Origin: Arthrobacter russicus | GTDB lineage: Bacteria; Actinomycetota; Actinomycetes; Actinomycetales; Micrococcaceae | DNA: 64,000 nt | NCBI RefSeq assembly: GCF_031454135.1 | Contig: NZ_JAVDQF010000001.1 | Location: 1,116,001-1,180,000 of the forward strand | Direction of reading: 5' to 3' | In this document: positions 14,650 to 31,195 of the stretch, piece by piece | Layout: each line of letters starts with the position of its first letter | How positions within the stretch are numbered: the first letter of the stretch is position 1 | Translations under genes and position numbers: made by a program | Notes under the pieces: generated by a model | Told to the model about the DNA's origin: nothing | The model's database searches: none | Seen by the model: only the letters and a program-made list of their open reading frames with translations

Positions 14650-14717
14650 GTTCACCGGCAGTTCACCCGCTCTGGTTAGGCTCATGCCGATAACCAATAG
14701 ACACCATGGGGAGCGTC

Positions 14718-14921: not shown

Positions 14922-14988
14922 GAAATTCCCAGGCCGGAAAGTTAACCATTTAGACGCATCTTCTTCATGTAAGCCTGGCGGCGAATTC

Positions 14989-15032
14989 AGCGAAGCCCCC
15001 AAGGGTTAGAACCCTTGGGGGCTTCGCTTTTT
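14989..15032 (+). terminator. Strong Rho-independent terminator
   Basis: A perfect inverted repeat AGCGAAGCCCCCAAGGGTT / AACCCTTGGGGGCTTCGCT (14989-15007 and 15010-15028) is followed by a run of five T. It ends transcription from the small gene at 14718. The minus-strand exit has no U-run, so it is directional. Confidence 0.9.
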
Positions 15033-15056
15033 CCATCTTCATTCGAAAGTGCCTTC

Positions 15057-15581
15057 ATGTCCGTCGTTCGCATAATGGTTGCGTCCTTCAGCAATTCCCA
15101 GGACCTCGTTTTGCATAGCTGGCTCCGGCATCGCAATCGGGTGATCGAAGGCCGGTTGATCGCGGGCTCCAGCCTCGACGACGAGGCTTTCGACCCGAGC
15201 ATCGGTGCCGCGTGGAAACCGATCGAACCCAAAGACTTCGGCCAGGAATTCGATGTGGACCGGGTCTTCGCTTGGCGGCTCCTGACCTCTAACAACCGCG
15301 AATTGGCGCGCAGCGCGGGGCTCTTCTTCCGATTCGCCGACGCCCAGGCCGACGCCGCCGACGCGCAGCAGAGCGCCGCCCGGATGGAGTTCGACGCCGT
15401 CGTCGACGGCTCCGAAGGCACGCAGACGTGGCGCGGCAGCCTCGCCGGACGACCAGTCGTTTTCGGTTCGCGCTGGTTCCGGATGGAACGCGACCGGGAA
15501 CGCGCTTTGCAGAATGCGTTGGCGATTTTGCCGATGGCGCATTTGGCCGAAACCGCGCAATCCGTGGGGTCTTCCCGGTGA
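15057..15581 (+). CDS. Hypothetical protein, 174 aa
   Basis: This ORF starts at ATG 15057, 25 bp after the terminator. It has no hydrophobic helix and no signal peptide. The segment VFAWRLLTSNNRELARSAGLFFRFADAQADA resembles in layout the short strand-turn-strand repeat of YegP/DUF1508-like proteins, but this is a weak impression. The second half (GRPVVFGSRWFRMERDRERALQNAL) is basic and probably helical. No good ribosome-binding site is visible, and an antisense ORF of similar size exists, so coding status is likely but not certain. Confidence 0.5.
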   Translation: MSVVRIMVASFSNSQDLVLHSWLRHRNRVIEGRLIAGSSLDDEAFDPSIGAAWKPIEPKDFGQEFDVDRVFAWRLLTSNNRELARSAGLFFRFADAQADAADAQQSAARMEFDAVVDGSEGTQTWRGSLAGRPVVFGSRWFRMERDRERALQNALAILPMAHLAETAQSVGSSR

Positions 15582-15897
15582 TTTCACAACCGAGGGTCGC
15601 AATTTCTCAGAAAAGAAAGCCGCGACACCCAATGTTCACCCAACGGCCAGCGGTACTTCGTGTTCGCGTGGACGGAGCGGGCGGGCCGCGCAGCAGAATG
15701 GATTCAGGTTGCTCAGAGATAATCCAGCAATCTCACAGTGAATCATCAGAACTTCCTTGTTGAAGGCTGGCTATAGCCATGTCTTGACGAGGATGGCCCG
15801 CCCCGGGTTAGAGCCGGGACGGGCCAAAAACTACAGAGGTAATCCGCGTCTGTAGTAACGTAGTAACAAAGCATTCTATCAAGGAGATATACCGAGA
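15582..15897. other. 316-bp leader/promoter region of the surface-transport operon
   Basis: No convincing gene was found. It contains a palindrome GGCTATAGCC near 15769, a GC-rich hairpin GGCCCGCCCCGG / CCGGGACGGGCC (about 15794-15825, one mismatch, followed by AAAAAC rather than T), and a tandem 8-mer GTAGTAAC-GTAGTAAC (15852-15867) just upstream of the ribosome-binding site AAGGAG (15881-15886). The direct repeat is a candidate activator-binding or -10 region for the following operon; a standard PHO box was not recognised. Confidence 0.5.
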
Positions 15898-16983
15898 ATG
15901 AAGAAGTCTGTTCTTTCGCTCGCCGGTGCCGTTTCTGTCGGCGTCGTTGCCCTTGGTTTGATCGGTTCTTCCGCTGCTGTCGCCGATCCGGGGTCGGCCA
16001 CCGACTACCGCACCTACGCGGCCGTCGGCTCGGACACCACCCAGTCAGTCTGGAACGGCTTGGCCAACGGCACGGTCAGCCCGTCCGTTGCTTCCTGGGA
16101 TGCCTTCCCGCCCGCCCCGTCCGCCACGATCCAGACGAAGAGCTCCGGCCCTTCGTTCAACCGTCCGCAGGGCTCCGGCGCCGGCGTTCAGGCTTTGAGC
16201 GCTTCCTTCGATGCTTCGAACCACAACTACCAGGGTGTCGACATCACCAACCAGGTCGATTTCGCCCGTTCGTCCTCCGGCGCTGCCAAAGACGGCACCG
16301 ACCTGACCTACCTGCCGTTCGCCCGCGACGCGGTCAGCTTGGCAGTCAAGACCTCGGCCGCCGGCAGCGTCGATGTTTCAACCCAGCAGCTGGCGAACAT
16401 CTACAGCTGCGTCGCCGGTGCGAACACCATCACCGTGGGCACCACCACGGTCACGGTCAACGCCAAACTGCCGCAGGCCAGCTCGGGCACCCGCGCTTTC
16501 TTCCTCAAGGCAATCGGCGTGGCCACCCCGGGCTCCTGCGTCACCACGGTGGGCGCTGAGAACGACGGCGGTCAGCTGACCGCCAACGGCGATGTCATCC
16601 CGTTCTCGGCTGCACAGTGGATCGGCCAGAAGAATGGCGTTGCCACCAACACCATCACCAACGACGAGATCCTTGCCTCGGTCAACACCTTGGCTCCGAC
16701 CGCCGGCAGCGGCTCCAGCCTGACCCCGGGCGCGCTTTACGGCAGCACCTCGGCCGAACCGTCTACCGCTGCAGGCACCTTCGCCCGCGACACTTACAAC
16801 GTGGTGACCACCGCCGCGTACACCTCCAACTCGGCGCTCGCCACCACGGTGCTGAAGTCCGACCTGAAGAAGCCCGCCGCGATCAACCTGATCAAGAGCT
16901 ACGGCTTCCTCACCCTGAGCTACGTCGGCGACCCGACCGTCGGCGCCGGCCTGGCTTCGCACCAGTCCAAGTTCAAGCACTAA
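15898..16983 (+). CDS. Secreted PstS-like substrate-binding protein
   Basis: This 361-residue protein has a classical signal peptide (basic KK, hydrophobic core, cleavage near AAVADPG at residue 30). The mature part has the type-II periplasmic-binding fold markers of phosphate-binding proteins: GSDTTQSVWN near the start, DFARSSSGAAKD, YLPFARDAVSLAV, and ASSGTRAFFLKAIG, corresponding to the oxyanion-binding loops. Unlike the other two binding proteins in the operon it has no C-terminal membrane helix, so it is either released or held by partners. It is the first gene, separated from the rest by a strong hairpin. Phosphate is the family ligand; another oxyanion or a polymer-derived ligand is possible. 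Confidence 0.75.
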   Translation: MKKSVLSLAGAVSVGVVALGLIGSSAAVADPGSATDYRTYAAVGSDTTQSVWNGLANGTVSPSVASWDAFPPAPSATIQTKSSGPSFNRPQGSGAGVQALSASFDASNHNYQGVDITNQVDFARSSSGAAKDGTDLTYLPFARDAVSLAVKTSAAGSVDVSTQQLANIYSCVAGANTITVGTTTVTVNAKLPQASSGTRAFFLKAIGVATPGSCVTTVGAENDGGQLTANGDVIPFSAAQWIGQKNGVATNTITNDEILASVNTLAPTAGSGSSLTPGALYGSTSAEPSTAAGTFARDTYNVVTTAAYTSNSALATTVLKSDLKKPAAINLIKSYGFLTLSYVGDPTVGAGLASHQSKFKH

Positions 16984-17007
16984 GCACCACTCGAACCAGT
17001 AACCACG

Positions 17008-17040
17008 GACGGGCGGCGGACTCCCAGTCCGCCGCCCGTC
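17008..17040 (+). terminator. Strong intergenic hairpin after first operon gene
   Basis: A perfect 15-bp stem (GACGGGCGGCGGACT / AGTCCGCCGCCCGTC) has a 3-base loop. It is followed by TGGTTA rather than a U-run, so it is probably a partial terminator or mRNA 3'-end stabiliser between the secreted binding protein and the anchored components. Confidence 0.65.
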
Positions 17041-17095
17041 TGGTTACCCCCCAGCACCTCCCGTCGATTGCTCGCATCCTAGAGAAAGCTCCGTC

Positions 17096-18637
17096 GTGTT
17101 GATCAAGAAATCCGGAAAATTCGCGCTCGTGCTCGGAATCTCGCTGCTAGTCCCGGCTTTGGCCATCGGCGGGGTTTCGGTTGCCAACGCCGCAGACCAG
17201 ACAACCTCCGGCGGATCCGCCACACTTGTCCTGCAACCCAGTTCCGGCTCTTGGGCGAGCGGCAACGCCGGAGACCCTTCGCCGATGGTCAAGTTGAGCG
17301 CGAAGGTGACCTGCCCTTCCGGTAGCGATTTTCTGACTCCGTTCATCACGGAGCCCGGCAGCGAGCTTCCTGCCGTGACCGCGACGTCGACGGTTCGCAG
17401 CGCCTACAAGATCTCCCGACCGGATTCACCGGTGTCGCTTTCCGGCCCGGTTTTCGAATCGGACCTGCTCGATGTGTCGACCTTCGGCAGCTACGCCACC
17501 GCGCAATCGGCGAGCATCCCCGACGTGAGAGCCGCGTTGGAGGCCAACCACACCTACAGTTTCGGCCTGGCCTGTTCGGTATACGGCTCGGATATGACCT
17601 TTACGCTCAGCGACGGGAAACCCATCGTCGTCTGGACTGCTTTCAAAACCGATGCGGCCAAGAACTGGAGTGTTCCAGCGCCCAAGGCCGACACCACGGT
17701 GAAGCTCAACGGCGCCTCCGCCGAGCCGACCAGCGCGACGCTCACCGCCGAGGTCGATTCGGCTGCCGCCGGCGGAACGGCATCCGATGCCAAGGGCAGC
17801 GTCGAATTCTTCTCCGGCGGCAAGTCCGTCGGCACGGCAGCTGTTTCCGCAGGAAAGGCTTCGTTCAAGGCCAGCGGGCTGACCGCCAGCACGAAATACA
17901 GCTACACCGCCAAATACGCGCCTGCTGCGGATGACGAAAAATACAACGCCTCTCCGATGTCCGACGAAGTCAGCGTGACCACCGCCAAAGATGGCAGCAG
18001 CACCGCGAACGGTTCGGATGCCGGCAGCACCACGAACGGTTCGGCGAGCGCATCCGGAGCCAACGGCAGCGCCACTTCCTCTGGCGCGAACGCCGGCGCC
18101 ACCGCGAATGGTTCGACGGCCGCCTCCGGATCGAATGCCGGCGCAGCAGCCGGTGGCGACACCGCCGCGGCCAACTCGAACGCCAGCAGCGCGGCCAACG
18201 GCACCCCGCCGACGCTCAGCGAGGGCGGCAGTATCGAGGCAGGCAAAAGCTACACCGTGGCGGCACCGGCCGGAACCTTCACCGCGGGCGACTCGATCGC
18301 CGGAGAACTCCACTCGGACCCGATCGCACTGACCGAAACCGCTTCCGCCGCGGCAGACGGCTCGGCGAGCTACACCTTCACGGTGCCGGCTTCGCTGCCG
18401 GCCGGCGCGCACCAACTAATCCTCACCGGGACCCCGTCCGGGGCGAAATACACCCTGAACCTCACTGCCTCAGGCACCGGGAACAGCCCATTCGCACCCT
18501 TGACCAATTGGATTTCCAGCAGCGCCGCAACTCCGGCCGGGATCACCATGATCTTCGGCCTGCTGCTGCTCCTGGTTGCCGCGACCGCGGTTGGCTGGCA
18601 CTTCCTGATCAAACGCCGCGCACCTCGCGAAAACTGA
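17096..18637 (+). CDS. Membrane-anchored surface protein with Ig-like domains
   Basis: This is a 513-residue protein with a GTG start. A signal peptide (residues 1-33, ending VANA) is followed by a unique N-terminal domain with two Cys (about 70 and 157). A bacterial Ig-like domain follows at about 200-295 (TLTAEVDSAAAG...GSVEFFSGGKSVGTAAV). Next come a 75-residue Ser/Ala/Gly/Asn low-complexity linker (300-375), a second small beta domain and a C-terminal helix (about 487-506) with tail IKRRAPREN. The tail has the shape of a sorting signal but no LPXTG or LAXTG was found, so it is probably membrane-tethered. It sits in an operon with sortases and a Pst-type importer; a stalk or wall-spanning role is inferred. 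Confidence 0.7.
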   Translation: MLIKKSGKFALVLGISLLVPALAIGGVSVANAADQTTSGGSATLVLQPSSGSWASGNAGDPSPMVKLSAKVTCPSGSDFLTPFITEPGSELPAVTATSTVRSAYKISRPDSPVSLSGPVFESDLLDVSTFGSYATAQSASIPDVRAALEANHTYSFGLACSVYGSDMTFTLSDGKPIVVWTAFKTDAAKNWSVPAPKADTTVKLNGASAEPTSATLTAEVDSAAAGGTASDAKGSVEFFSGGKSVGTAAVSAGKASFKASGLTASTKYSYTAKYAPAADDEKYNASPMSDEVSVTTAKDGSSTANGSDAGSTTNGSASASGANGSATSSGANAGATANGSTAASGSNAGAAAGGDTAAANSNASSAANGTPPTLSEGGSIEAGKSYTVAAPAGTFTAGDSIAGELHSDPIALTETASAAADGSASYTFTVPASLPAGAHQLILTGTPSGAKYTLNLTASGTGNSPFAPLTNWISSSAATPAGITMIFGLLLLLVAATAVGWHFLIKRRAPREN

Positions 18638-18700
18638 TCCCGCACCGGGATCAGTCCAGCGAATCCGCATGATCGGCAACCATATCGGGGGGACCCTGCA

Positions 18701-21445
18701 ATGAAATTTTCACCATCTGCGCTTCTGCGATCGGCCGCAACGATTGCTTGTGCAGCACTAGTGCTCGGCGGCTTGCCGGCATTCCCGGCTCAGGCGGTTC
18801 CTGAGCCGGGAAACTGGGGAGCCAATGGCAGCGTCGTGACGCCGTCCGCGGTCACCGCACGTTGGGACAACAAAGACAACCCGGCCACGAGCCAAGTCCC
18901 TCGGGATGAAACCCAGGCTCTGAGCCACACCGCCGGCAAAACCTATGCCGACATTCCGCCCTTGATCCAAAACCGGTACCGGACCGCCTTCGGCGCGGAC
19001 AACGGCCAGGGCGGGCTGCAGATGACCGTGTCGCAGACCACCGGCCTAGTCAACCAAGCGATCAAAGTGAGTTTCTCCGGGGGGCCGAAGAACGCCGTGA
19101 TCGGCGGAAACCAGTTCAAATACGTCCAAGTCTTCCAATGTTGGGGAGCTATCGGGGCCGACGGCAAACCCGATCCGCAAGCCAGCGCTCCGGATCCGAG
19201 CACCTGCCAGATCGGGGCCAACTCCAACCCGACCGATTTCATGACCCAAGGCAGCCGGGGCCTGTTCGCGGATCCGCTGCTCAAAGGCGGCGATCGAGAG
19301 ACTGCCGCGAATGCCCCGCTCGTCGGCATCGACGGCGCGACGTCGCCGGTCGACGTGGCAAGCAACAAATTCTTCAACCAGACCACGACCAATGAGATCA
19401 ACGCACTGCCTTTCGATGGCGAAGGCAAAGCCCAAACCGTTTTCGAGGCGCAGACCGGCGCCGAGGCCAATTTCATGGGTTGCGGGGCGGCCAAAGACCG
19501 TCCCAGCACTCCGTCCTGCTGGCTCGTGGCCATTCCCAAGACACCGGACATCGACCAGTTCAGTTATCCCTATGCCTACCGTTCCACCTTCGCACCGTCG
19601 GTCTGGGCGCAGCGGATGCAAATAAAAATCGAATTCCGGGATGCTCCGGCGTACTGCTCAGGCAGCGCTGCCCGGACGCTCTCCGCTGGTTCGGAATTGC
19701 TCGCCTCGGCGATGTCGTCCTGGATCCCGGCGATGTGTTCGAACATCAAACTGGCCACCGGATTCTCTTCGCTCTCCGATGCCCAGGCCCGCCGCCAGCA
19801 GGCAGACAATGCGCAGCCGATGATCTTCACCACCGAACCTTCGGCCGGAGCGCTGCACGCCCCGGCGGCCTTGGCCGGCGTCGTAATCAGTTTCAACATC
19901 GGCATGCTGGACCAGACCGCCGGATACCTGGGGCCGGTGCCGCAGTTGAAACTGAATGCCCGCCTGGTCGCGAAACTGCTCACCCAGTCGTACCAAGCCG
20001 GCATGGGATTGGACGCCAACTCCGACGGCGGCAAGGTCTTCGCCGCCAAGGTGCCCTGGGCCAAAGACTTCTTGCCGTCCATCATCACGGACCCGGAATT
20101 CGTCAAACTCAACCCGGGGCTCTCGAAATTCATCAACAAAGGTTCCTTCACCGGCGGCAACATCCAACTTGAAGCGCTCAAATCGGATGCCGCAGACCGG
20201 CTCTGGAAATGGATCGCTGCGGACCCAGCCGGTTCCGGTTTTTTGAACGGATGCCCGGATGAGAGCGGCAACGTGGTGAATCCGTTCTACTCCACCCGCA
20301 GCTACCAGGGCTGCCAAGCCCAAGCGGGGGAACTCGAAGCCGTCGCGAAAGCCCGGCGGCAAGCAACCGCTACCCCGCCCACCTATGCCAACCTTCCACT
20401 CGGCTACCCGACGGACGGCACCAGCTACCCGCTCCCCGGCTGGTATGAATCCATCCCGATCATCCGAACCGGCGATGGTCCGGTTCTGGATCCCCAAGGG
20501 AATACCCAGGTCGACCCCAATAAGCTCCCGTTGACCATGCCAGACGTCTACCCGCGCCAGGATTCCATGCAGGCCACCGGGAAAAACGCCTTCCGGGCGA
20601 TCACGCCGAGCAATCAGACGTGGTGCGGCAAAAAGGAGGCCTGCGTGCAGCCGGACTTCCCCGGAGTCGGAAAATGGACCTCGAGCACCAAGACGCCGGC
20701 GGACCTGGCCTCGCGGTTCTCCCTCGCGGTCACCGATACCGCCACTGCCGCACAGTACCAGCTGCCTACCGCCCTGCTCTGCGATTCGAGCGGCAACGCC
20801 TGCGTCGGCGCGGACAGTACTAGTTTGACCAAGGAAGCCTCGCGGTCAACTGCCGCCGGACCGGACGGCGTCTTTCCCCCGGCTCCCGGGCCGGATTACG
20901 CCGGCGGTGCTTATCCCTTGACGCTTCCGGTGTACGCAGCGGTGCGGACCGAGGGAATCCTGCCGGAACAAGCAAAGCCTTTCGCCCAGCTGATCCAGTT
21001 CATCACCGGCACCGGCCAGATCCCCGGTACCGCTTCCGGCCAGTTGCCGCCGGGGTATGCGCCGCTGACCCCGGCGATGACCGCCCAAGCGGCGGCCGTG
21101 GTCAAAGCGCTCAATGAGATCAAGGCGAAGCCGGCCCCGCAGGTGGAGAATCCGGCCGCCCAGCCGGGGATCGTCCCCGTGCCGGCAGCCGATTCGCCCA
21201 GCGACCAATCCCCTCCCGAGCTGCTGAAGCCCGATGGGGCAAATGCGCCGGCCGCGGAATCGGCAGCCAAGCGGACCAAACCCGCCGATGCCCCGGAAGT
21301 CAGCAGCGCCTCAGGGACTACCGACGCCATGTCCAGCATCATCGGCCAATTCACGCTGTTGATCTTGCTCGGCCTCGGCCTGCTCGCCGCTCTGGCAGCT
21401 CCAATTCTGCGTCGGATCGGCAAAAAGACCGGGGCCGGTTCATGA
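18701..21445 (+). CDS. Large surface-anchored PBP-like protein
   Basis: This 914-residue protein has a signal peptide (cleavage near PAQA-VPEP, residue 32) and a single C-terminal helix (about 882-902) followed by RRIGKKTGAGS. In between lie a N-terminal beta-rich domain (KVSFSGGPKNAVIGGNQFKY; several Cys) and a region resembling PstS-type binding folds (FTTEPSAGALHAPAALAGVVISFNI, later YPLTLPVYAAVRTEGILPEQAKPFAQLIQFITGTGQ). The Pro/Ala-rich segment 800-860 looks like a wall-spanning linker. A fusion of this size is unusual for a transporter-binding protein. Its stop overlaps the pstC start by 4 bp (ATGA), tying it to the importer. The ligand is unknown. Confidence 0.65.
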   Translation: MKFSPSALLRSAATIACAALVLGGLPAFPAQAVPEPGNWGANGSVVTPSAVTARWDNKDNPATSQVPRDETQALSHTAGKTYADIPPLIQNRYRTAFGADNGQGGLQMTVSQTTGLVNQAIKVSFSGGPKNAVIGGNQFKYVQVFQCWGAIGADGKPDPQASAPDPSTCQIGANSNPTDFMTQGSRGLFADPLLKGGDRETAANAPLVGIDGATSPVDVASNKFFNQTTTNEINALPFDGEGKAQTVFEAQTGAEANFMGCGAAKDRPSTPSCWLVAIPKTPDIDQFSYPYAYRSTFAPSVWAQRMQIKIEFRDAPAYCSGSAARTLSAGSELLASAMSSWIPAMCSNIKLATGFSSLSDAQARRQQADNAQPMIFTTEPSAGALHAPAALAGVVISFNIGMLDQTAGYLGPVPQLKLNARLVAKLLTQSYQAGMGLDANSDGGKVFAAKVPWAKDFLPSIITDPEFVKLNPGLSKFINKGSFTGGNIQLEALKSDAADRLWKWIAADPAGSGFLNGCPDESGNVVNPFYSTRSYQGCQAQAGELEAVAKARRQATATPPTYANLPLGYPTDGTSYPLPGWYESIPIIRTGDGPVLDPQGNTQVDPNKLPLTMPDVYPRQDSMQATGKNAFRAITPSNQTWCGKKEACVQPDFPGVGKWTSSTKTPADLASRFSLAVTDTATAAQYQLPTALLCDSSGNACVGADSTSLTKEASRSTAAGPDGVFPPAPGPDYAGGAYPLTLPVYAAVRTEGILPEQAKPFAQLIQFITGTGQIPGTASGQLPPGYAPLTPAMTAQAAAVVKALNEIKAKPAPQVENPAAQPGIVPVPAADSPSDQSPPELLKPDGANAPAAESAAKRTKPADAPEVSSASGTTDAMSSIIGQFTLLILLGLGLLAALAAPILRRIGKKTGAGS

Positions 21446-22461
21446 CAGTCATCGATCAGGCACCCGCAGCCGACGCCGAAGCGGCCACACCGCGCGCCAT
21501 CCGGCAACGCCCGGAACGGGCCGATCACGTTTTCCGCAGCCTGACCCGCGGCGGCGGAATCATCGTGCTCACGGTGATGATCCTGGTGGGCCTGTTTCTG
21601 ACGGTCAACGCAGTCCAGGCGATCTCCGCACGGGGACTGGTCGAGTTCATCACCACACAGGACTGGGCACCGGAATCGAACAACTTCGGAATCGCGGCGG
21701 TGCTGAGCGGCACGGTGATGATCGCCATCGTCGCCCTGACCCTGTCGTTGCCATTGTCCTTGGGCACCGCGCTTTTCATCACCGAGATCGCCCCGCCGCG
21801 GATCCGCGGCATCCTCACCTCGGTCATCGATCTGATGGCGGCCGTGCCTTCGGTGGTGTTCGGACTCTGGGGGCTGGCTTTCCTGCAGGTGAACATCGTG
21901 CAGTTCAGCCAGTGGCTCTCCACCTGGTTCGGCTGGATCCCGATCTTCCGCGTGGACGGCGCCGACCCGGCAAATCCTTTGCCCAATGACGCGTTGTACA
22001 CCTCGTCCACGTTCATTGCCGGGCTGGTCGTCGGCCTGATGATCGTGCCGATCCAGACTTCGATCATGACCGAGTCGTTTTCCCGGGCCCCGATCGGCGA
22101 GCGCGAAGGCGCCTTCGCACTGGGCGCCACCCGTTGGGGCATGATCCGCTCTGTGGTGCTCCCGTTCGGCCGCGGCGGGATCATCGGCGGAACCATGCTG
22201 GGACTCGGCCGCGCGCTCGGCGAGACCATCGCGATCTACTTGATCATCTCGCCCATCTTCACGATCAACTTCCACATTCTGCAGAACGGTTCCAACTCAG
22301 TTGCCGCGCTCATTGCCCTCCGCTATTCGGAATCGAACGAGTTCACCATGTCCGCGTTGATGGCTGCCGGGCTGTCCCTGTTCCTGCTCACGATGGCGGT
22401 CAATTTCACCGCTTCGGCGATTATTTCCCGCTCCCGCTCCGGCGCGGAAAGCGAGGGCTGA
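21442..22461 (+). CDS. pstC: ABC transporter permease, PstC-type
   Basis: The product is 339 residues with six membrane helices. The N-terminal cytoplasmic segment and first helix are followed by a periplasmic loop and the MetI-fold core. The EAA-type coupling loop reads EREGAFALGATRWGMIRSVVLPFGRGGIIGG, with the helix LGRALGETIAIYL typical of PstC. A loop insert of about 45 residues (FGWIPIFRVDGADPANPLPN) is longer than in standard PstC. The start overlaps the upstream stop (ATGA). It forms the transmembrane pore with the PstA-type permease seven bases downstream. Phosphate specificity is family knowledge and not proven here. Confidence 0.85.
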   Translation: MTVIDQAPAADAEAATPRAIRQRPERADHVFRSLTRGGGIIVLTVMILVGLFLTVNAVQAISARGLVEFITTQDWAPESNNFGIAAVLSGTVMIAIVALTLSLPLSLGTALFITEIAPPRIRGILTSVIDLMAAVPSVVFGLWGLAFLQVNIVQFSQWLSTWFGWIPIFRVDGADPANPLPNDALYTSSTFIAGLVVGLMIVPIQTSIMTESFSRAPIGEREGAFALGATRWGMIRSVVLPFGRGGIIGGTMLGLGRALGETIAIYLIISPIFTINFHILQNGSNSVAALIALRYSESNEFTMSALMAAGLSLFLLTMAVNFTASAIISRSRSGAESEG

Positions 22462-22468
22462 GGACGGT

Positions 22469-23755
22469 ATGGACACCATGACCAGGCGGCGGGATTCCCG
22501 TGCCGCCGAACCAAAGACCTTCCTCCCCCGGGAGCTGATGCCGGCCGAAGCCGTCGCCGAACCGCGGGTCCGGGTAGGCATCTCGCTGCACGAAGTGCTC
22601 ACCGCCGTCGGGTCGTTGCTCGCAGGTTGCGCGATGGGGCTGCTGTTGAGCCTGGGGCTGGGCTTGATCCCGCTCGGCTGGGCGCCGATCGTTTCCTTCA
22701 TCTGGTTCTTGATGTTTTACACCTGCCTGGTTTTCCTCAGCGACCGGGGTCCAGCGGTCCGGGATCGGTTTTGGAGCGTGATCCTCTGGTCCGCTGGGGC
22801 GATCGTGGTCGGTTGCCTGGTTCTGGTCATCGGCTTCACCGCGACCCGTGGCTGGGACGTCTTCCGCTACGGAAACTTCTTCGTCCAGGACATGAGCCTC
22901 ACCGGCCCACTGGCCGGCCTCGACAGCGGCGGCATCCTGCACGCTCTGGTCGCGACGCTGGAGCAGATCAGCATCGCGCTGCTGCTCTCCGTACCGCTGG
23001 GGTTGACCACCGCGATTTTCCTGAACGAAGTGGGCGGCAGGTTCGCCAAGTTCGTCCGCACCATCGTCGAGGCGATGACCGCGCTGCCTTCGGTGGTCGC
23101 CGGCCTTTTCATCTACGCGGCGATCGTGGTCGGGGTGACCCGGCAGTTCAACGGCTTTGCAGCCTCCTTGGCGATTACCGTCCTAATGCTGCCGATCATC
23201 ATCCGCTCCTCCGACGTCGTGCTTCGCCTGGTCCCCGGAAACCTCCGCGAAGCTGGTCTGGCACTCGGCGCCGGGCAGTGGCGCGTGGTGCTGCACGTGG
23301 TTTTGCCGACCGTACGGTCCGGTCTGACCACCGCGATCATCCTCGGCACCGCGCACGGCATCGGCGAAACCGCCCCGGTGCTGCTGACCTCGGGCGTCAC
23401 CAACAACTTGAACTTCGACCCGTTCAACGGTCCGCAGACCTCGCTCCCCTTGGCGGCTTTGGAATTCGTCAAATCGCCGCAGCCGAACATGATCGCCCGA
23501 GGTTTCGCGACCGCGGCCTTCTTGCTTTTCGTGGTGCTGGCGATGTTCATCACGGCGCGCATCCTCGGCGGCAAGGAAGCGGGGAAGTTGAGCAGCCGGC
23601 AGCGCCGGCAACGGGCCACCCAGTCCCGGTTGACCTTGATGCGCATCAACCGGTCGAATGCCGAACGCAACGTCTATTCGCGGGACGCCGCCCTGCGGTC
23701 CGAGCCCGATGGCCCAACCGGGTCAGAAGACCAATCCAGGAAAGTACCGCAATGA
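22469..23755 (+). CDS. pstA: ABC transporter permease, PstA-type
   Basis: This 428-residue protein is longer than standard PstA (about 290) because of an N-terminal extension with two extra hydrophobic helices and a C-terminal cytoplasmic tail rich in Arg/Ser (SSRQRRQRATQSRLTLMRINRSNAERN). The MetI core carries the coupling motif NLREAGLALGAGQWRVVLHVVLPTVRSGLTTAIILGTAHGIGETAPVLLTSG, which is PstA-like. The gene starts 7 bp after pstC and its stop overlaps the next start (ATGA). The added helices and tail suggest contacts with the atypical surface components. Confidence 0.85.
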   Translation: MDTMTRRRDSRAAEPKTFLPRELMPAEAVAEPRVRVGISLHEVLTAVGSLLAGCAMGLLLSLGLGLIPLGWAPIVSFIWFLMFYTCLVFLSDRGPAVRDRFWSVILWSAGAIVVGCLVLVIGFTATRGWDVFRYGNFFVQDMSLTGPLAGLDSGGILHALVATLEQISIALLLSVPLGLTTAIFLNEVGGRFAKFVRTIVEAMTALPSVVAGLFIYAAIVVGVTRQFNGFAASLAITVLMLPIIIRSSDVVLRLVPGNLREAGLALGAGQWRVVLHVVLPTVRSGLTTAIILGTAHGIGETAPVLLTSGVTNNLNFDPFNGPQTSLPLAALEFVKSPQPNMIARGFATAAFLLFVVLAMFITARILGGKEAGKLSSRQRRQRATQSRLTLMRINRSNAERNVYSRDAALRSEPDGPTGSEDQSRKVPQ

Positions 23756-25431
23756 AATTCAGTCGTATTGCCCGTCCGCTCGCCGTGCTCCTCGCTGCGT
23801 TCTTCGCAGTCTCTTTGATCGCACCTCCGGCGAATGCGCTGGACCGGATCTCCGGCAATGGCTCGTCCTGGGCCGGAAATGCCATCAACCAATGGGTGAC
23901 CGATGTCAAAGCACAGGGCCAGACGGTCGACTACACTCCGGACGGTTCCTCCTCCGGCCGGAAGAATTTCGCCACCGGCCTCAGCGACTTCGCGATCTCG
24001 GAAATCCCGTTCAAAGGCGACACCGCCGACAAACAGGACACCAACTTCCCGAATTTCGCCTACTCGATGCTCCCGGTCGTCGCTGGCGGGACGTCGTTCA
24101 TGTACAACCTCCAGGTAGGCGGAAAGCGGTTGCAGAACCTCCGACTGTCCCAGGACACCTTGGCTGCCATCTTCAGCGGCGACATCACGCAGTGGAATGA
24201 CAAGGCCATCGCGGCCACGAACCCCGGCGTAGCCCTCCCCGCGCAACGGATCACCGTAGTCGTCCGGTCCGACGGCTCGGGGGCCACCGCGCAGTTCACG
24301 CTCTGGATGCTCCGCAAGTTCCCACAGCGCTACGCCTCGCTCTGCGCCAAAGCCAAATGCGACCCCAGCGCAGCCACCAGCTACTTCCCGTACCAGAACA
24401 TCAGCAACTTCACGGCCCAGTCAGGCTCGAACGGCGTGACGACCTACACCACGAACACGCCCTTCACGATCAACTACGACGAGTTCTCCTACGCCAAAGG
24501 CGTGGGTTTCCCGGTAGCCCAGATCCAGAATGCCGCTGGCTTCTACACGATCCCCACGGATTCGGCCGTGGCGGTGGCTTTGACCCAGGCCCAGATCAAC
24601 AAGGACAAGAATTCGCTCAACTACCTCAGCCAGGACCTCTCGAAGGTCTATGGCCACGGCGATCCGCGAACCTATCCGATTTCCGCGTACTCCTACATGA
24701 TCGCCCCGGCCCAGCTGCAGGGGAATTTCAGCAACAACAAGGGCGCAGCGTTGGCGAACTTCGCCGCGTATTCATTGTGCGAAGGCCAACGGACCATGGG
24801 GAGCTTGGGCTACTCGCCGCTGCCGATGAACTTGGTGCTCGATGCCATGGACCAGGTCCGGAAGATCCCTGGTATCGACGCGGGCACTCTGGCGAAGCTC
24901 GAAGCGACGACCAAGAGCGTATCCACCAGCGCCGGCAACCCCTGCAACAACCCGACCTTCAAGCCCGGTGACGATCCCCAGGTAAACCAACTGGTGCGCA
25001 CGGCGCCGTTCCCGGAAGGCTGCGATGCCAAATGCCAGGCTCCGTGGTCGAAAGTCAATGCAGCGGTGAACGGCGGTGGCGCCGGCGGGCCGGCGCCAGC
25101 CGGGCCCGGCGCCGGAGACAAGCCGGCCGCCGGCGGAACCGGTGCGGCGGCTACCGATGCCAAGCCCGATGATGCCGCAGCGGCGCAGACCGATGCCACC
25201 GAATGCGATCCGGAAACCGGGCTCTGCGCTACCGGGGGCCAGAAGGCCGGAACGGGCGCCGGACAAGCCGCCGTGGCGAATCCGATCGTGCTGGCCGGAA
25301 CCAACGGCTGGGGGTCCAAAGAAACCATGTTGGTAGTCGCCTGCGTCTTTGCCGTAGCCTTTTTGCTGGTCCCGCCATTGATCTTCCGGATGACTTCCAG
25401 CCCGCGAACCCGCCGTCGAAACGGGCAATGA
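23752..25431 (+). CDS. pstS: PstS-like binding protein with C-terminal membrane anchor
   Basis: The product is 559 residues. A signal peptide ends near NALDRIS. The phosphate-binding loops are clear: GNGSSWAGNAINQW, PDGSSSGRKNFATGLSDFAIS, VVRSDGSGATAQFTLWM. After the roughly 400-residue binding domain come a Cys-containing segment (CDAKCQAP), a Gly/Ala/Pro/Asp-rich linker (about 435-520), a helix (about 525-547) and the tail RMTSSPRTRRRNGQ. Just before the helix lies VLAGTNGWG, close to but not matching the LAXTG recognised by class E sortases (Asn instead of Gly). Overlaps of 4 bp on both sides couple it to the permease and to a sortase-fold gene. Ordinary PstS proteins are lipoproteins without such a tail. 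Confidence 0.85.
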   Translation: MKFSRIARPLAVLLAAFFAVSLIAPPANALDRISGNGSSWAGNAINQWVTDVKAQGQTVDYTPDGSSSGRKNFATGLSDFAISEIPFKGDTADKQDTNFPNFAYSMLPVVAGGTSFMYNLQVGGKRLQNLRLSQDTLAAIFSGDITQWNDKAIAATNPGVALPAQRITVVVRSDGSGATAQFTLWMLRKFPQRYASLCAKAKCDPSAATSYFPYQNISNFTAQSGSNGVTTYTTNTPFTINYDEFSYAKGVGFPVAQIQNAAGFYTIPTDSAVAVALTQAQINKDKNSLNYLSQDLSKVYGHGDPRTYPISAYSYMIAPAQLQGNFSNNKGAALANFAAYSLCEGQRTMGSLGYSPLPMNLVLDAMDQVRKIPGIDAGTLAKLEATTKSVSTSAGNPCNNPTFKPGDDPQVNQLVRTAPFPEGCDAKCQAPWSKVNAAVNGGGAGGPAPAGPGAGDKPAAGGTGAAATDAKPDDAAAAQTDATECDPETGLCATGGQKAGTGAGQAAVANPIVLAGTNGWGSKETMLVVACVFAVAFLLVPPLIFRMTSSPRTRRRNGQ

Positions 25432-26378
25432 TGACCCTTCTCGTCGAAAATCAGAGCACCGAAACGCTCGCCGAACCAAAAGTCGCGCCCGCCCCAGCCC
25501 CGGTGCCGGAGGCCGTGGAAGCACCCAAACGCTGGATCTGGGACGTCGGAATCATCCTGCAGATGTTCGCGGTTCTGGTCATCGGGCTGCTGCTGAACCT
25601 GGTCTTCGTGTCGCAGCTGCAGTATTCGACCTCCCAATCCGCCTTGCGGCAGGATTTGCGCTTGCAGCTGGCACAGGGATCGGCGCCGATCGGGCAGAAC
25701 ACCATCGAGGGAACGCTGACCCCGTTGGGAACTCCCATCGCCTTGCTGGAGATCCCGCAGTTGAAGAAATCCGAAGTCATCGTCGAGGGAACCACGTCCG
25801 CGCAGACTGCGGTGGGCGTCGGCCACCGCAGGGATTCCTCGTTCCCCGGCCAGGCCGGCACCGCAATCCTGATGGGGCGCTCCGGCGCGTACGGTGGTGT
25901 CTTTTCGGCGATCGGCACCTTGAAGCCGGGGGCCCGCTTCGCCGTCACCACCGGGCAAGGGACCTTCACTTACCAAGTCATCGGCAGCCGACGCGCGGGC
26001 GATCCGATGCCGCCGACGCCTAAGCCGACCGAGGGGCGGTTGACCTTGACCACGGCCGCAGGAGTTCCGTTCATGCCCCAGGACGTCCTGCGCGTCGACG
26101 CGCGCCTGGTCTCGGAAGTGGCGCCCACCCCGCCCAGGGTCTTTGCCGCCGGTGAGAAGAAACTCCCGGAATCCGAGCAGACGATGGGTCAGGACTTCTC
26201 CGGCATGCTGGGCATCATCATCTTGTTCCAACTTCTCACCGCAGCGGTCATCGCGGCCATTTGGTGTTGGAAACGATGGGGCAAATGGCATACCTGGATT
26301 GCTCTGGCCCCCATCCTTTTGACCATTTCGATTCTTCTCGGGAATCAAATCAACATGATCCTTCCCAACCTTTTGTGA
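25428..26378 (+). CDS. Degenerate sortase-fold membrane protein (pseudo-sortase)
   Basis: This 316-residue protein has an N-terminal cytoplasmic segment, a helix at 38-60, a sortase-like beta-barrel (about 100-230) and two further C-terminal helices (about 258-280 and 288-308). The fold signatures are IALLEIPQLKKSEVIVEG, GVGHRRDSSFPGQAGTAIL and RLTLTTAAGVPF followed by DVLRVDARL. Where sortases have the catalytic His (AGHR) this protein has MGRS (Arg151), and where TLxTC ends in the nucleophile it has TLTTA (Ala210); the Arg (222) is retained. It should therefore be unable to cleave sorting signals and may serve as a scaffold or binding module. The start overlaps pstS (ATGATGA). Confidence 0.75.
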   Translation: MMTLLVENQSTETLAEPKVAPAPAPVPEAVEAPKRWIWDVGIILQMFAVLVIGLLLNLVFVSQLQYSTSQSALRQDLRLQLAQGSAPIGQNTIEGTLTPLGTPIALLEIPQLKKSEVIVEGTTSAQTAVGVGHRRDSSFPGQAGTAILMGRSGAYGGVFSAIGTLKPGARFAVTTGQGTFTYQVIGSRRAGDPMPPTPKPTEGRLTLTTAAGVPFMPQDVLRVDARLVSEVAPTPPRVFAAGEKKLPESEQTMGQDFSGMLGIIILFQLLTAAVIAAIWCWKRWGKWHTWIALAPILLTISILLGNQINMILPNLL

Positions 26379-26385
26379 GGCCCCG

Positions 26386-27252
26386 ATGAGCACAGATTCC
26401 CTTTTCACCGAAACCATTCCGCAGCTGAGCCTGGATGAAGCACCGCCCCAGCTGCCCGAGCTGTTCGGCCCCGAGGTCGCCTCCGAACTGGATGCCCGCA
26501 ACATCAGCGCCTGGTTCGGCGACCACAAGGTCTTGGACCGGGTCTCGCTGACCATGCACGCCGGGCAGGTCACCGCATTGATCGGCCCTTCGGGCTGCGG
26601 GAAATCGACCTTCCTGCGGATCCTGAACCGGATGCACGAGATGATCCCCTCCGCATCCTTGGCCGGCGAGGTGCTGCTCAACGGCACCGACATCTACGAT
26701 CCCGGCCAGAAGATCACCGCGGCTCGGCGCAACATCGGCATGGTGTTCCAGAAGGCCAACCCGTTCCCGGCGATGTCCATCTACGAGAACACCATCGCCG
26801 GTCTCAAACTCTGCGGCATCCGCGCCAATCGGGCGCAGAAGGACTTCCTGGTCGAAGACTCGCTGCGCAAGGCCTCGCTCTGGGAAGAAGTCAAAGACCG
26901 TCTGGAACAGCCCGGCGGCGGTCTCTCCGGCGGTCAGCAGCAGCGTTTGTGCATCGCCCGCTCGCTGGCGATCAGCCCGCAGGTGCTGCTCATGGACGAA
27001 CCCTGCTCCGCCCTGGACCCGACTTCCACCCGCCGCGTCGAGGAAACCATCGAATCCTTGCGCGGCCAGGTGACCATCGTGATCGTGACGCACAATATGC
27101 AGCAGGCTGCGCGGGTCTCCGACACCTGTGCGTTCTTCCTCGCCTCGCAGAACACCCCGGGAGTGATCGTGGAGCACGGCGAAACCCACGCGATGTTCAA
27201 CTCGCCGCAGGACCAGCGCACCAACGACTACGTCAACGGCCGCTTCGGCTGA
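26386..27252 (+). CDS. pstB: ABC transporter ATP-binding protein, PstB-type
   Basis: This 288-residue ATPase has Walker A GPSGCGKST (near residue 67), Q-loop GMVFQKANPFPAMSIYEN as in PstB, signature LSGGQQQR, Walker B VLLMDEPCSALDP and switch His in VIVTHNMQQA. The VFQKxNPFPxSI stretch and the AFFLA...G...EHG end are diagnostic of phosphate importers. A roughly 30-residue N-terminal extension (TIPQLSLDEAPPQLPELFG) precedes the ABC domain. It energises the PstCA-type permease from the cytoplasmic side. No phoU follows, which is unusual for a regulatory Pst system. Confidence 0.9.
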   Translation: MSTDSLFTETIPQLSLDEAPPQLPELFGPEVASELDARNISAWFGDHKVLDRVSLTMHAGQVTALIGPSGCGKSTFLRILNRMHEMIPSASLAGEVLLNGTDIYDPGQKITAARRNIGMVFQKANPFPAMSIYENTIAGLKLCGIRANRAQKDFLVEDSLRKASLWEEVKDRLEQPGGGLSGGQQQRLCIARSLAISPQVLLMDEPCSALDPTSTRRVEETIESLRGQVTIVIVTHNMQQAARVSDTCAFFLASQNTPGVIVEHGETHAMFNSPQDQRTNDYVNGRFG

Positions 27253-27256
27253 TCCG

Positions 27257-28048
27257 ATGAACCGGAAGTTGCTCTTCGCCGTCAATTTCAGCGCCATTGC
27301 GGTGATCGCCGCGGTCACGCTCTGGCTCTGCATCATGCCGAAGGCCCAGGCCAGCGCCGGATCCGGCGACGCCGCACGGGCAGCGCCGGCGGACTCGGTC
27401 GCGGAAAACCCGGCGGAACCGGCGCTTCCGGCTCAGGGGTCCGTCTCCGGTGCCCGCGCCGACACCGCCTGGCTCGACACCACGTCCGCCAGCACCGGAA
27501 TCCCGGTCCGCGCGCTCCAGGCCTACGCCGCAGCTACCGCCCGGGTCAAGCGCGAGCAGCCGGAGTGCGGACTGGCCTGGAACACCTTGGCGGCTTTGGG
27601 CCTGATCGAATCCGACCACGCGCGCGGTCGGCTCACCGCGAAGGGCGATGCGGTGCCGAAGATCATCGGCCCGGTGCTCAACGGCAACGGCTTCGCGGAG
27701 ATCCCCGATTCCGACGGCGGCGCGTTCGACGGCGACGACCGTTGGGACCGGGCGGTCGGGCCCTTGCAGTTCATCCCGCAGACCTGGCGGAGCTATGGCC
27801 GGGACGGCAACGGCGATGGCGTCGCCGACCCGCAGAACATCGACGACGCGGCGCTGAGTGCGGCCGCTTACCTCTGCACCGCTGCCGCGGAGACCGGGAG
27901 CAGCGGGCTGCGTTCGGCCGCTGGCTGGAGCCACGCGATTCTGGCCTACAACCAATCGTCGGCTTATCTCAAGGACATTTTCGACGCCGCGCAGCGTTAC
28001 GCCGCGCAAACCCAACCAGCGGTCATAACCCAACAGGACGCGCCATGA
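27257..28048 (+). CDS. Membrane-anchored lytic transglycosylase
   Basis: The product is 263 residues with an N-terminal signal anchor (about 7-27) and an extracytoplasmic domain. The catalytic Glu is in ALGLIESDHARGRL; GPLQFIPQTWRSYGRDGNGDGVADPQNIDDAALSAAAYLC is the substrate-binding region typical of MltB-like (SLT_2) enzymes of actinobacteria, and ILAYNQSSAYLKDI closes the fold. These enzymes cut peptidoglycan between MurNAc and GlcNAc. It starts 4 bp after pstB, and its position between an ATPase and a sortase suggests it opens the wall locally to place the surface assembly. Confidence 0.85.
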   Translation: MNRKLLFAVNFSAIAVIAAVTLWLCIMPKAQASAGSGDAARAAPADSVAENPAEPALPAQGSVSGARADTAWLDTTSASTGIPVRALQAYAAATARVKREQPECGLAWNTLAALGLIESDHARGRLTAKGDAVPKIIGPVLNGNGFAEIPDSDGGAFDGDDRWDRAVGPLQFIPQTWRSYGRDGNGDGVADPQNIDDAALSAAAYLCTAAAETGSSGLRSAAGWSHAILAYNQSSAYLKDIFDAAQRYAAQTQPAVITQQDAP

Positions 28049-28773
28049 GCACCGGCCGCCGCAGAGCCTGGCCGCGCATTGCCTTGATCAGCCTGGTCGC
28101 GGCCTGCCTGGTTGCCATCGGGATCCTCACCGGCCAGCTCCTGGCACCGGGAAAGCTGCCGATCGCCACCGCCTTGTTCCCCACCGCTGCGGCGGCCGAC
28201 AGCACCGCGGAAGCACCGAATACGGTCAGCGTCCTGGACGCGAACGTCGCCGAGGCCACGCAGAAACAGCAATTGGTCCAGCAGCCGCCGGCACCCGGTC
28301 AACCACTGCGCGTCCAAATGCCGGAGCTCGGTTTGGACGTGCCGGTGGTGGCCGCGAAACTAGCCGCAGACCGGAGTTTCAATCCGCCGTCGAACGTCTT
28401 GGCCTATTGGATCCGCGACTACGGCATCGCCGGTCCGGAGGCCAAGAACACGCTTTACCTGGCCGCCCATTCCTGGAACAACGGCTATGCCGCATTCAAC
28501 CCGCTGATGGACCAGAAGTCCGGCAGCTCAACGGCCAAGGCCGGCCAGAAGATCTCGGTGCAGACCGCGGCCGGCCGGTACAGCTATTCGGTGACCTCGG
28601 TGGCCGACTATGCAAAGTCCGGGATCGCCGGCGAAGCAGACCTGTGGCAGGCGGTACCGGGCAGACTGGTTTTGGTCACCTGTTTCCAGCTCAATGACGC
28701 CGGGGCGAACCGCAACCTCGTGGTCTACGCGCAATTGGATGCAGCCACGCCGGACCCGGGACCCCGCAAATGA
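28045..28773 (+). CDS. Class E/F-type sortase
   Basis: The protein has 242 residues with the start overlapping the previous stop (ATGA). A helix at about 11-33 anchors it to the membrane. The sortase domain (about 85-232) carries the complete triad: His142 in LYLAAHSWNNG, Cys213 in RLVLVTCFQ and Arg223 in GANRNLVVYA. Sortases cleave a sorting signal and join the protein to peptidoglycan or to another subunit. Size and the compact barrel suit class F or E of actinobacteria. With the catalytically empty paralogue four genes upstream it forms an active/inactive pair. Its own substrates are not obvious because no canonical LPXTG is present in the operon. Confidence 0.85.
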   Translation: MSTGRRRAWPRIALISLVAACLVAIGILTGQLLAPGKLPIATALFPTAAAADSTAEAPNTVSVLDANVAEATQKQQLVQQPPAPGQPLRVQMPELGLDVPVVAAKLAADRSFNPPSNVLAYWIRDYGIAGPEAKNTLYLAAHSWNNGYAAFNPLMDQKSGSSTAKAGQKISVQTAAGRYSYSVTSVADYAKSGIAGEADLWQAVPGRLVLVTCFQLNDAGANRNLVVYAQLDAATPDPGPRK

Positions 28774-30248
28774 CCGCTTTGCACGGCACCCGGAACCTGC
28801 AGCGCGGCCTGCTCAACGGCCGCTACCAGCTGGGCCCGTTGTTGTCCCGCGAAGGACCGGTGCAGATCCGCCGCGGCTGGGATGCTTCCCTGCACCGCAC
28901 GGTTTTGCTCCGGATCCTCCTGGAAGGCACGGCGGCAGAGGTCTCCCGGTTCCGCAGTTCGGTCAAGAGCAGTGCCGAGCTCATGTTGGAGCGCGCCATC
29001 ACGGTGTACGACGCCGGAGCACAACAAAGCCCGGAAGGCCGGCTTTGGTGGGCGGCCACGGAATTCGTCGAGGACCAGCGGCCGCAGCGGTTCGCGGCTG
29101 CCCAGATCCAGGACTTGGCGGGACAACTGGCGGAGACTCTGGGCCAAGTCCATGCGCTCGGCTCGGCTCATGGGAACCTGGGCCCGGATCAGGTCTTCGT
29201 ACTCGCGGACGGCCAGCTTCGGGTAGGCGGCTTCGCCGGCACCCGGGATGAAACCGCACGGCAGGCAGACCTGTTGGGTTACCGGGCGGTGCTGCTGGAT
29301 TGGCTGGCGCACTGCCCGTTCCCTTCGGCCCTGCGCCGCAGGTTGAGCGACATCGCAGAGCAGTGCGGATCTGGTTTGGCCGACTTCGACGATGTGCGGC
29401 ACGCGCTCAACCAGCAAACCGGGCCGGAGCAGCGGACCAGGCGGCCCGCCCAATCGGCGGTAGCCACCGCGCAGCTGCCGCTGGTCCGGCGTCCGGGTGG
29501 CCAAACCAGAACTGCGCCCGCCGTCGACACCCGGCGGCAACGCCGGCAGCGGCGCAACAGCGCGATCGCGGTTCCGGGCTTCGTGATCGTGATCCTGCTG
29601 GGCTTGATCGCAGCGTTCTGGGGGCTGAGCACGCTCAACAACCAAGCCGCCGCCGAGCATCGGGTGCCGACCGTCATCGATCTGCCGATTGCCGAGGCCC
29701 AGGCGAAGCTCGCCGCAGCCGGCTTCGAGTTGGGCGGGCAGCGCACCGAGCCGTCGATGACGGTGCCCGCCGGGCAAATCCTCGCCACCGACCCGGCGGC
29801 CGGCCAGAAAACCGCCGAAGGCAGCTTCGTGGTCCTGGTGGTCTCGGCCGGAAAGCCGCAGATCAAGCTCCCCGAGGTCGCCGGAGCTCCGGCCAGCACC
29901 CTGCAGTCGAGACTGGAAGCCGCCGGACTCAAAGTCCAGTCCAGCGAAAAGGACGGGCCGGATCCGGCCGGCACGGTGCTCTCGATGTCCCCCGCCGCCG
30001 GCACCAGCGTCGAAGCGGGCAGCACGGTGAAGCTGAGCACCGCTTCCGGGTTCCAACGGTTGCCCGCCGGGCTGCTCGGCAAGTCAGCAAAAGATGCGGT
30101 CGCGGCACTGCATGCCGCGGGTTTCACCGCCCGGGTGGCGAAATCGCCGGGCTTCGGAGCGCCGGTGGACACGGTTCTGGCCGTCGAGCCGAGGGATCGG
30201 GCGCCGGTGAAGGGCATCGTGACCATGAGCGTGGCTGCGGAGCAATAG
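28770..30248 (+). CDS. PASTA-domain pseudokinase
   Basis: This 492-residue protein starts with ATGA overlap. Residues 16-215 have the layout of a PknB-type kinase but lack catalysis: the VAIK Lys is Arg48 (LLRIL), the HRD loop is HGNLGPDQV (134-142, no catalytic Asp) and DFG is GGF (153-155). A membrane helix follows at about 267-287, then three PASTA repeats: from VPTVIDLPIAEAQ (299), LPEVAGAPASTLQ (about 372) and LPAGLLGKSAKDA (about 437). PASTA domains bind uncross-linked peptidoglycan or muropeptides. The protein probably senses or docks to wall precursors and scaffolds the operon's machinery. Confidence 0.85.
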   Translation: MTALHGTRNLQRGLLNGRYQLGPLLSREGPVQIRRGWDASLHRTVLLRILLEGTAAEVSRFRSSVKSSAELMLERAITVYDAGAQQSPEGRLWWAATEFVEDQRPQRFAAAQIQDLAGQLAETLGQVHALGSAHGNLGPDQVFVLADGQLRVGGFAGTRDETARQADLLGYRAVLLDWLAHCPFPSALRRRLSDIAEQCGSGLADFDDVRHALNQQTGPEQRTRRPAQSAVATAQLPLVRRPGGQTRTAPAVDTRRQRRQRRNSAIAVPGFVIVILLGLIAAFWGLSTLNNQAAAEHRVPTVIDLPIAEAQAKLAAAGFELGGQRTEPSMTVPAGQILATDPAAGQKTAEGSFVVLVVSAGKPQIKLPEVAGAPASTLQSRLEAAGLKVQSSEKDGPDPAGTVLSMSPAAGTSVEAGSTVKLSTASGFQRLPAGLLGKSAKDAVAALHAAGFTARVAKSPGFGAPVDTVLAVEPRDRAPVKGIVTMSVAAEQ

Positions 30249-30255
30249 GCCCGGG

Positions 30256-30885
30256 CTATCCGGGCTGCGTCATCAGCCGCGCCAACCCCGGCCCGGACAG
30301 CTGCGGCCAATAGGCCTTGCGCCCGGTCATCGCCATGATGAGCGCGAGTGTTTTGCCGCGGATCAGCGGACCTTCGCCGGTGGCGAACCCGCTGTCCTCC
30401 GCCTCCAGCCGGAGCCCGCGGACCCGGCTCCGGGCCAGCACCACTTGGTCGCTGCCGGCATAATATTCGGCCAAGGCTTGCAGCACCGGGAGCGGGTGCT
30501 CCCGGACCAGCCCCAGAGGATGCCGGATGTCTTCGCCGTGCACCACGGTTTCGCCCAGCAAAGCCAGCTTCGGCACCGGAGGCGAGGTGCGGCTACCGAT
30601 CGTCGCTTCGAACCTGGCCAGGGTCTCGGCCGGATTCGCGCCGAGCTGCTCCTGCAAGCGCTGGGCGACCTGTTTGTCGAAATCGAAGCGTGCCCGCAGC
30701 ACCCCGAAGAACCAACGCGGGCCGGACAGCACTCCGCTCGCCGTCAGGTGCGCCAACACTTCGCGCACCGACAAACCGGTGCACAGCGACGAGGTGTCCC
30801 ATTGCTCTGGCTGTAGCCCGGCCAATTGCCCTGCCAGCGCAGTGCGCTCACCGTCGATGCTCTGCCAAACCTCAGCGATCTCCAT
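30256..30885 (-). CDS. Mycothiol-dependent maleylpyruvate isomerase-family protein (DinB-like)
   Basis: The protein has 209 residues. The N-terminal four-helix bundle has EQWDTSSLCTGLSVREVLAHLTA, with the conserved WxxPSLC-type region and the His of the metal site; later LLGETVVHGEDIRHPLG supplies further His ligands, as in the MDMPI/TIGR03083 family. Members use mycothiol, the actinobacterial thiol, in isomerisation or detoxification. It is convergent with the PASTA gene (7 bp apart) and divergent from the polyamine operon. The substrate is not predictable. Confidence 0.85.
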   Translation of the reverse strand: MEIAEVWQSIDGERTALAGQLAGLQPEQWDTSSLCTGLSVREVLAHLTASGVLSGPRWFFGVLRARFDFDKQVAQRLQEQLGANPAETLARFEATIGSRTSPPVPKLALLGETVVHGEDIRHPLGLVREHPLPVLQALAEYYAGSDQVVLARSRVRGLRLEAEDSGFATGEGPLIRGKTLALIMAMTGRKAYWPQLSGPGLARLMTQPG

Positions 30886-31195
30886 GCGCCCAGCCTAAAC
30901 GCTCCGCCGCTTTCCGGCTCCGCGATCGGGCTGGGCCAGACGGCCGGTCCCCGGAAGCAGATCGCCACGGCCACCGGAGCCGTTGCCGGCATTCATCCCG
31001 AGGCGCCTGCAGCCCGCTGGCGATCCGGCTCGGACGCGCGGCGAGCCAACCCAGACAGATCTACGTAAAACGAAGCAAAATCGGACATAAGCAACGATAT
31101 TCGTTGAATTTAATCCGCAATTAACACCAAAGCCTTGTGATCTGCAACATAGAGTCACTACGTTGGGGAGCAATCGATACCCGGGAGAGATCGCC
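30886..31195. promoter_or_regulatory. 310-bp divergent control region of the polyamine operon
   Basis: The first 170 bases are GC-rich with no convincing ORF. The last 130 bases are AT-rich and hold a perfect dyad CAACGA-TAT-TCGTTG at 31092-31106, followed by TTGAATTTAATCC, a likely promoter and operator zone. The leader ends with CGGGAGAGATCGCC before ATG 31196. The dyad is a candidate site for one of the Lrp/AsnC or PucR regulators nearby. Confidence 0.55.

Follow-up and report, generated by a model that had tools for sequence, protein, structure and literature searches.

A conserved seven-gene Pst-type importer cluster with membrane-tethered binding proteins and a pseudosortase in actinobacteria

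The DNA analyzed here (the window) is a 64,000-nucleotide stretch of Arthrobacter russicus (assembly GCF_031454135.1, contig NZ_JAVDQF010000001.1, positions 1,116,001 to 1,180,000). It contains a cluster of eleven genes, g1 to g11, in which homologues of the phosphate importer proteins PstS, PstC, PstA and PstB are joined to cell-surface and sortase-fold proteins. All eleven lie on the + strand and span 15898-30248, the place given in an initial annotation made from the sequence, which also put them on one strand. Five of the ten junctions are 4-bp overlaps and three are spacers of 4-7 bp; thus, 8 of 10 are under 10 bp, and the close packing described in that annotation was confirmed. The larger gaps are 112 bp between g1 and g2 and 63 bp between g2 and g3. 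The eleven window genes are one unit, with the following features:

15623..15640, + strand: degenerate PHO-box-like repeat CGACACC-CAAT-GTTCACC, 3 mismatches, starting 275 bp before g1
15898..16983, + strand: g1, SBP1, secreted PstS-fold binding protein of 361 amino acids, without a C-terminal helix
17096..18637, + strand: g2, Ig-like surface protein with a C-terminal membrane helix, as read from the sequence
18701..21445, + strand: g3 (G3), 914 amino acids, with a beta-rich N-terminal part, a PstS fold (325-805), a linker and a C-terminal membrane helix
21442..22461, + strand: g4, PstC permease
22469..23755, + strand: g5, PstA permease
23752..25431, + strand: g6, PstS with a long linker and a C-terminal membrane helix
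25428..26378, + strand: g7, pseudosortase; sortase fold with His replaced by Arg151 and Cys by Ala210, C-terminal hydrophobic segments and an LLPNLL-type end
26386..27252, + strand: g8, PstB ATPase
27257..28048, + strand: g9, lytic transglycosylase (SLT_2 profile), accessory
28045..28773, + strand: g10, class F-like sortase (PF04203 match) that retains both His and Cys, accessory
28770..30248, + strand: g11, PASTA protein (PASTA match), accessory

Seven of these families form a conserved core: PstC (C), PstA (A), the anchored PstS (S), G3, SBP1, the sortase-fold protein (E) and PstB (B). All seven were present in 77 of 97 loci, comprising the window, 16 loci found with the window G3 as query, and the best 80 of 446 related stretches recovered by scanning species genomes with a G3 alignment. 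From the lineage of their genera, we take these 80 to be all from actinobacteria. Since the loci were chosen by G3, it is present in all 97 by construction; one of them, L066, is a near-copy of the window (99%). The window G3 query matched 17 of the 198 genomes of the order, its own genome counted. For 19 of the 20 loci with an incomplete set, the sequence runs out 0-3.3 kb past the outermost core gene on every side that lacks genes; the remaining one, L064, has 2.3 kb of upstream sequence without C, A and S. In L061, the end of G3 is doubtful. The most frequent order is C-A-S-G3-SBP1-E-B (47 loci), and the window order, SBP1-G3-C-A-S-E-B, is found in 14 loci, counting the window and L066. The genes remain together and their order is largely retained in other actinobacteria, the check that the initial annotation had proposed; the outcome that it named as refuting its single-system view, scattered homologues in no conserved order, did not arise. 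Its view of one Pst-type system, conserved and equipped with multiple binding proteins and surface components, holds for these seven genes, not for all eleven. Some strains carry two copies of the system (L091/L103, L109/L133, L089/L123 and L112/L130), as does one genome with L181/L182.

Because the first set had been chosen by G3, 40 genomes of the class were also searched with PstA as the only criterion. Matches of 184-224 bits numbered ten, the tenth being the window's own, and the nine others were inspected. Seven of them have G3 adjoining C, A and S; in one the contig stops within PstS, and one is another transporter. G407, one of these nine genomes, was already among those matched by G3 in a scan of the phylum.

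By profile, the permeases and the ATPase belong to Pst families. PstC (TIGR02138, 246 bits; cut-off 196), PstA (TIGR00974, 199 bits; cut-off 193) and PstB (TIGR00972, 345 bits; cut-off 343) all pass the equivalog cut-offs. The Walker A, signature and Walker B columns of PstB are at least 93% conserved across the family, and conservation is high in PstC and PstA as well. In a maximum-likelihood tree, the system PstA (37 of the 87 system rows plus 8) form one group with support of 98/92, apart from 30 canonical PstA, which are not one single group; the long row L183 adjoins the system group. The window genome also carries an ordinary pstSCAB. The missing phoU had been regarded as unusual for a Pst system, but a pst cluster with no phoU beside it is unremarkable in actinobacteria.

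Three predicted binding proteins accompany them. PstS matches PF12849 with 123 bits, above cut-off. Judged by the phosphate-binding residues in E. coli numbering, its pocket retains Ser, Arg and mostly DGSG; the oxyanion loop is mostly kept. It continues in a linker (family median, 168 residues) and then a C-terminal helix. For SBP1, Pfam gives nothing and NCBIfam a weak match to TIGR02136 (21.5 bits). G3 has no match in Pfam or NCBIfam at E 0.1; its residues 325-805 have a PstS-like fold that seems to be without the canonical phosphate loop, and profile comparison of G3 with SBP1 shows no relation (1.3%). Both PstS and G3 end in a terminal membrane helix without an LPxTG motif. Sortase anchoring of the receptors was rejected: within 80 residues of the C-terminus, LPxT/LAxT-type motifs are present in only 4 of 92 PstS, 3 of 97 G3 and 1 of 93 SBP1. 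A lipoprotein PstS was also rejected, a lipobox-like motif being found in 0 of 92, with open reading frame starts that are unreliable. Of the earlier proposal that the importer is fixed in the wall, the tethering of PstS and G3 is supported, at the membrane, and their fixation in the wall or anchoring by sortase is not supported.

The sortase-fold protein g7 matches PF04203 with 48 bits (cut-off 26.6) and, by sequence, sortases in the PDB. Its best NCBIfam match is the class E sortase (57 bits, below the cut-off of 160). In the family alignment of 84 rows, one of which has gaps there, the position of the catalytic His is Arg in 83 of 83, and that of the catalytic Cys holds Ala in 81 of the 83 lettered rows, with one Ser and one Thr in the others. 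Five members from the PstA-chosen loci are also without His and Cys. As a control, a sortase encoded elsewhere in the genome retains the His, Cys and Arg motifs. The g7 family is a conserved pseudosortase, as the initial annotation had suspected of the single protein. Its members have hydrophobic C-terminal segments; the 18 rows viewed show an LLPNLL-type terminus.

Expression control was addressed with the direct repeat GTTCACC-N4-GTTCACC, searched upstream of the first gene with up to 3 mismatches. A published account describes the GTTCACC direct repeat as the PHO-box motif of S. coelicolor (PMC4415409). L066 and any locus lacking a usable upstream sequence were dropped from the count, which leaves 86 of the 97. 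Such a repeat stands ahead of the leading gene at 36 of the 86 loci; the control counts were 12 of 339 for regions preceding internal genes and 4 of 86 for the opposite strand. When all 16,384 heptamers were scanned, 23 were present in at least 8 loci, and the top three of these are registers of the PHO repeat. The canonical pst of the window genome has a PHO box with 1 mismatch. In the congener L187, a 2-mismatch site at 2392 matches the place of the window's degenerate box.

At up to 2 mismatches, the window contains a single PHO box, a perfect copy at 14650. It is unlikely to be the operon's own, owing to a strong terminator-like site at 14989-15028. Between box and terminator lies a 67-amino-acid open reading frame with no Pfam match, possibly a small phosphate-starvation gene; box and reading frame lie within 14650-14921. 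A 188-amino-acid open reading frame, also without a Pfam match, lies just upstream of the operon (15015-15581); its protein cluster is represented in 22 examined loci, mostly upstream and on the same strand. A GC-rich hairpin at 15795-15825, read by eye, lies in the presumed g1 leader. Rfam gave no match above gathering scores over 14500-31000, and a promoter scan confined to the sigma-70 type found none.

The remaining window genes vary from lineage to lineage. The transglycosylase is found in 13, the active sortase in 11 and the PASTA protein in 13 of the 97 loci, in or beside the cluster and in several arrangements; these three are accessories of some lineages. The wall-opening and wall-sensing roles that the initial annotation proposed for parts of the cluster are putative. 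An active sortase, as g10 had been annotated, is plausible, both His and Cys being kept. The pseudokinase assignment of g11 is a reading of its sequence; no kinase profile matched the N-terminal region. Best hits of the g2 family occur in 15 loci, most of them in the window's clade. Two g2 orthologues have a sorting-like motif before the membrane helix, LANTG in L072 (8048-9715) and LADTN in L067 (8384-9601), which makes them possible substrates for g10, the accessory sortase. Elsewhere, WxLIP-class proteins are encoded in 27 loci and WxL/Ig-class proteins in 37. WxLIP_PGBD matches 21 of 23 relatives' proteins scanned (E 0.01; 23 of 33 WxLIP-class open reading frames), and WxL matches, more weakly, 10 of 34 at E 0.01 (30 of 68 WxL/Ig-class and 4 of 16 g2-class open reading frames); several of these matches are below the curated cut-off. 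None of g1-g11 has a WxL or WxLIP Pfam match at E 0.1, and the window clade has the Ig-like protein in place of the WxL/WxLIP proteins.

Taken together, the cluster probably encodes a second Pst-type importer, controlled by PhoP, whose receptors are tethered to the membrane and held by the pseudosortase; we put the probability of this reading at roughly 0.55. On phosphate starvation, PhoP acting at PHO boxes would induce the importer, in A. russicus as in its relatives. PstB, PstC and PstA would form the pump, and the cargo would be phosphate or a small phosphate-bearing anion. PstS would be kept at the membrane by its long linker and C-terminal helix, and the secreted SBP1 may capture ligand further out. 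The anion pocket of G3 has apparently been replaced, which would make docking or hand-over a likelier role than phosphate binding of its own. The pseudosortase may be a membrane subunit that binds, but does not cleave, the tails of PstS and G3, which resemble sorting signals, and may thereby keep the receptors at the pump. Lineages would then add wall-binding proteins, either WxL/WxLIP-like or Ig-like, or enzymes for wall remodeling and anchoring. A more elaborate version, a nutrient relay across the wall of monoderm bacteria in which the dead sortase is a permanent importer subunit that grips the receptor tails and phosphate passes from the secreted receptor via a pocket-less PstS to the pump, is offered only tentatively.

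Several observations weigh against the second-importer reading. PstS scores 203.4 bits with TIGR00975 versus a cut-off of 205, 1.6 bits short of the equivalog level. In its pocket Phe has become an invariant Trp, an additional Arg is invariant, Asp is Glu in 54 of 89 rows, and the Thr141 position is Ser in 44, Thr in 28 and Ala in 19 (n=91). Under a stricter helix rule, the C-terminal helix is found in 73 of 97 G3. No PHO repeat at up to 3 mismatches is present in 50 of the 86 upstreams, the window's own box at 15623 carries 3 mismatches, and L188 and L189, two of three further clade members, have no PHO site with up to 2 mismatches in 20 kb. Furthermore, the loci are related, so that the Fisher value for the PHO counts is not one for independent cases and the statistics are inflated. 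The system is also sparse: matches occur in 27 of 396 phylum genomes, near full length in 7 and partial in 20, and the partial ones may be ordinary PstS; within the family, 5 of 197 genomes match. Finally, the contact between the pseudosortase and the tails is inferred.

The ligand is where the closest rival departs. The initial annotation had left phosphate, another oxyanion or a polymer-bound ligand side by side; the choice narrows towards phosphate because PHO boxes occur in part of the loci and the PstS oxyanion loop is mostly kept. An importer still under PHO control could nonetheless move another phosphorus or oxyanion ligand (an organophosphate, a phosphonate or another oxyanion), possibly one released from a surface polymer. 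The altered PstS pocket, with its invariant Trp and additional Arg, would fit such a ligand, as would several binding proteins of differing types in a genome that already has a canonical phosphate importer. We consider it somewhat unlikely, given that permeases and ATPase pass the Pst equivalog cut-offs, that the loop is mostly kept, and that no phosphatase or phosphonate gene was recognized by eye in the 22 largest, unannotated flanking clusters.

Less probable still is that the ATPase and permeases together serve to detect phosphate, as a sensor or transceptor, or to power the assembly of the surface, with import secondary and the PstS-fold proteins mainly sensing. G3 seemingly without a phosphate loop, a pseudosortase without catalytic residues and PASTA proteins that recur in or beside the cluster are what such a device might show; the preserved PstB motifs, the high conservation of PstC and PstA and the absence of a regulator among the seven core families speak against it. 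That a Pst operon merely lies beside unrelated wall genes would suit the three accessory genes, each in a minority of loci, and is almost certainly wrong: it was rejected on the co-occurrence of the seven core families in 77 of 97 loci, and the PstA clade tracks the gene set and the junctions are tight.

If the second-importer reading holds, textbook phosphate import has a seven-gene version that seems undescribed, despite the 446 related stretches in one scan of species genomes; no description of it was found among the matches listed in the open-access literature. The cluster offers a conserved pseudosortase, a PstS-fold protein with a seemingly lost pocket, and WxLIP-like proteins in actinobacteria. 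It suggests an undescribed route of phosphate collection in thick-walled bacteria and a testable case of receptors held across a wall, and could be relevant to how soil and host-associated actinobacteria scavenge phosphate.

Among known systems, PstSCAB shares the PstC, PstA, PstB and PstS homologues and, in part of the loci, the PHO boxes. The system described here differs in its own PstA clade, its helix-tethered PstS and the addition of SBP1, G3 and the pseudosortase, and it sits in a genome that has the canonical copy too. Class E sortases, the housekeeping sortases of actinobacteria, share the sortase fold and are the best NCBIfam match of g7, whereas g7 has the LLPNLL-type hydrophobic end and its lettered family members are without the catalytic His and Cys. 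In the Isd haem relay of Staphylococcus aureus, several wall-spanning receptors feed an ATP-binding cassette (ABC) importer. The same idea may apply here, but no haem-binding domain was found in the window proteins, the receptors have no LPxTG motif, and the core has no active sortase. WxL sequences are concentrated elsewhere, over 91% of 938 belonging to Firmicutes in a published survey (PMC9772566; PMC10599100). Relatives of the window locus resemble WxL/WxLIP clusters in encoding WxLIP_PGBD and weaker WxL matches; they differ in belonging to Actinomycetota and in being joined to an ABC importer, with the Ig-like protein taking that place in the window.
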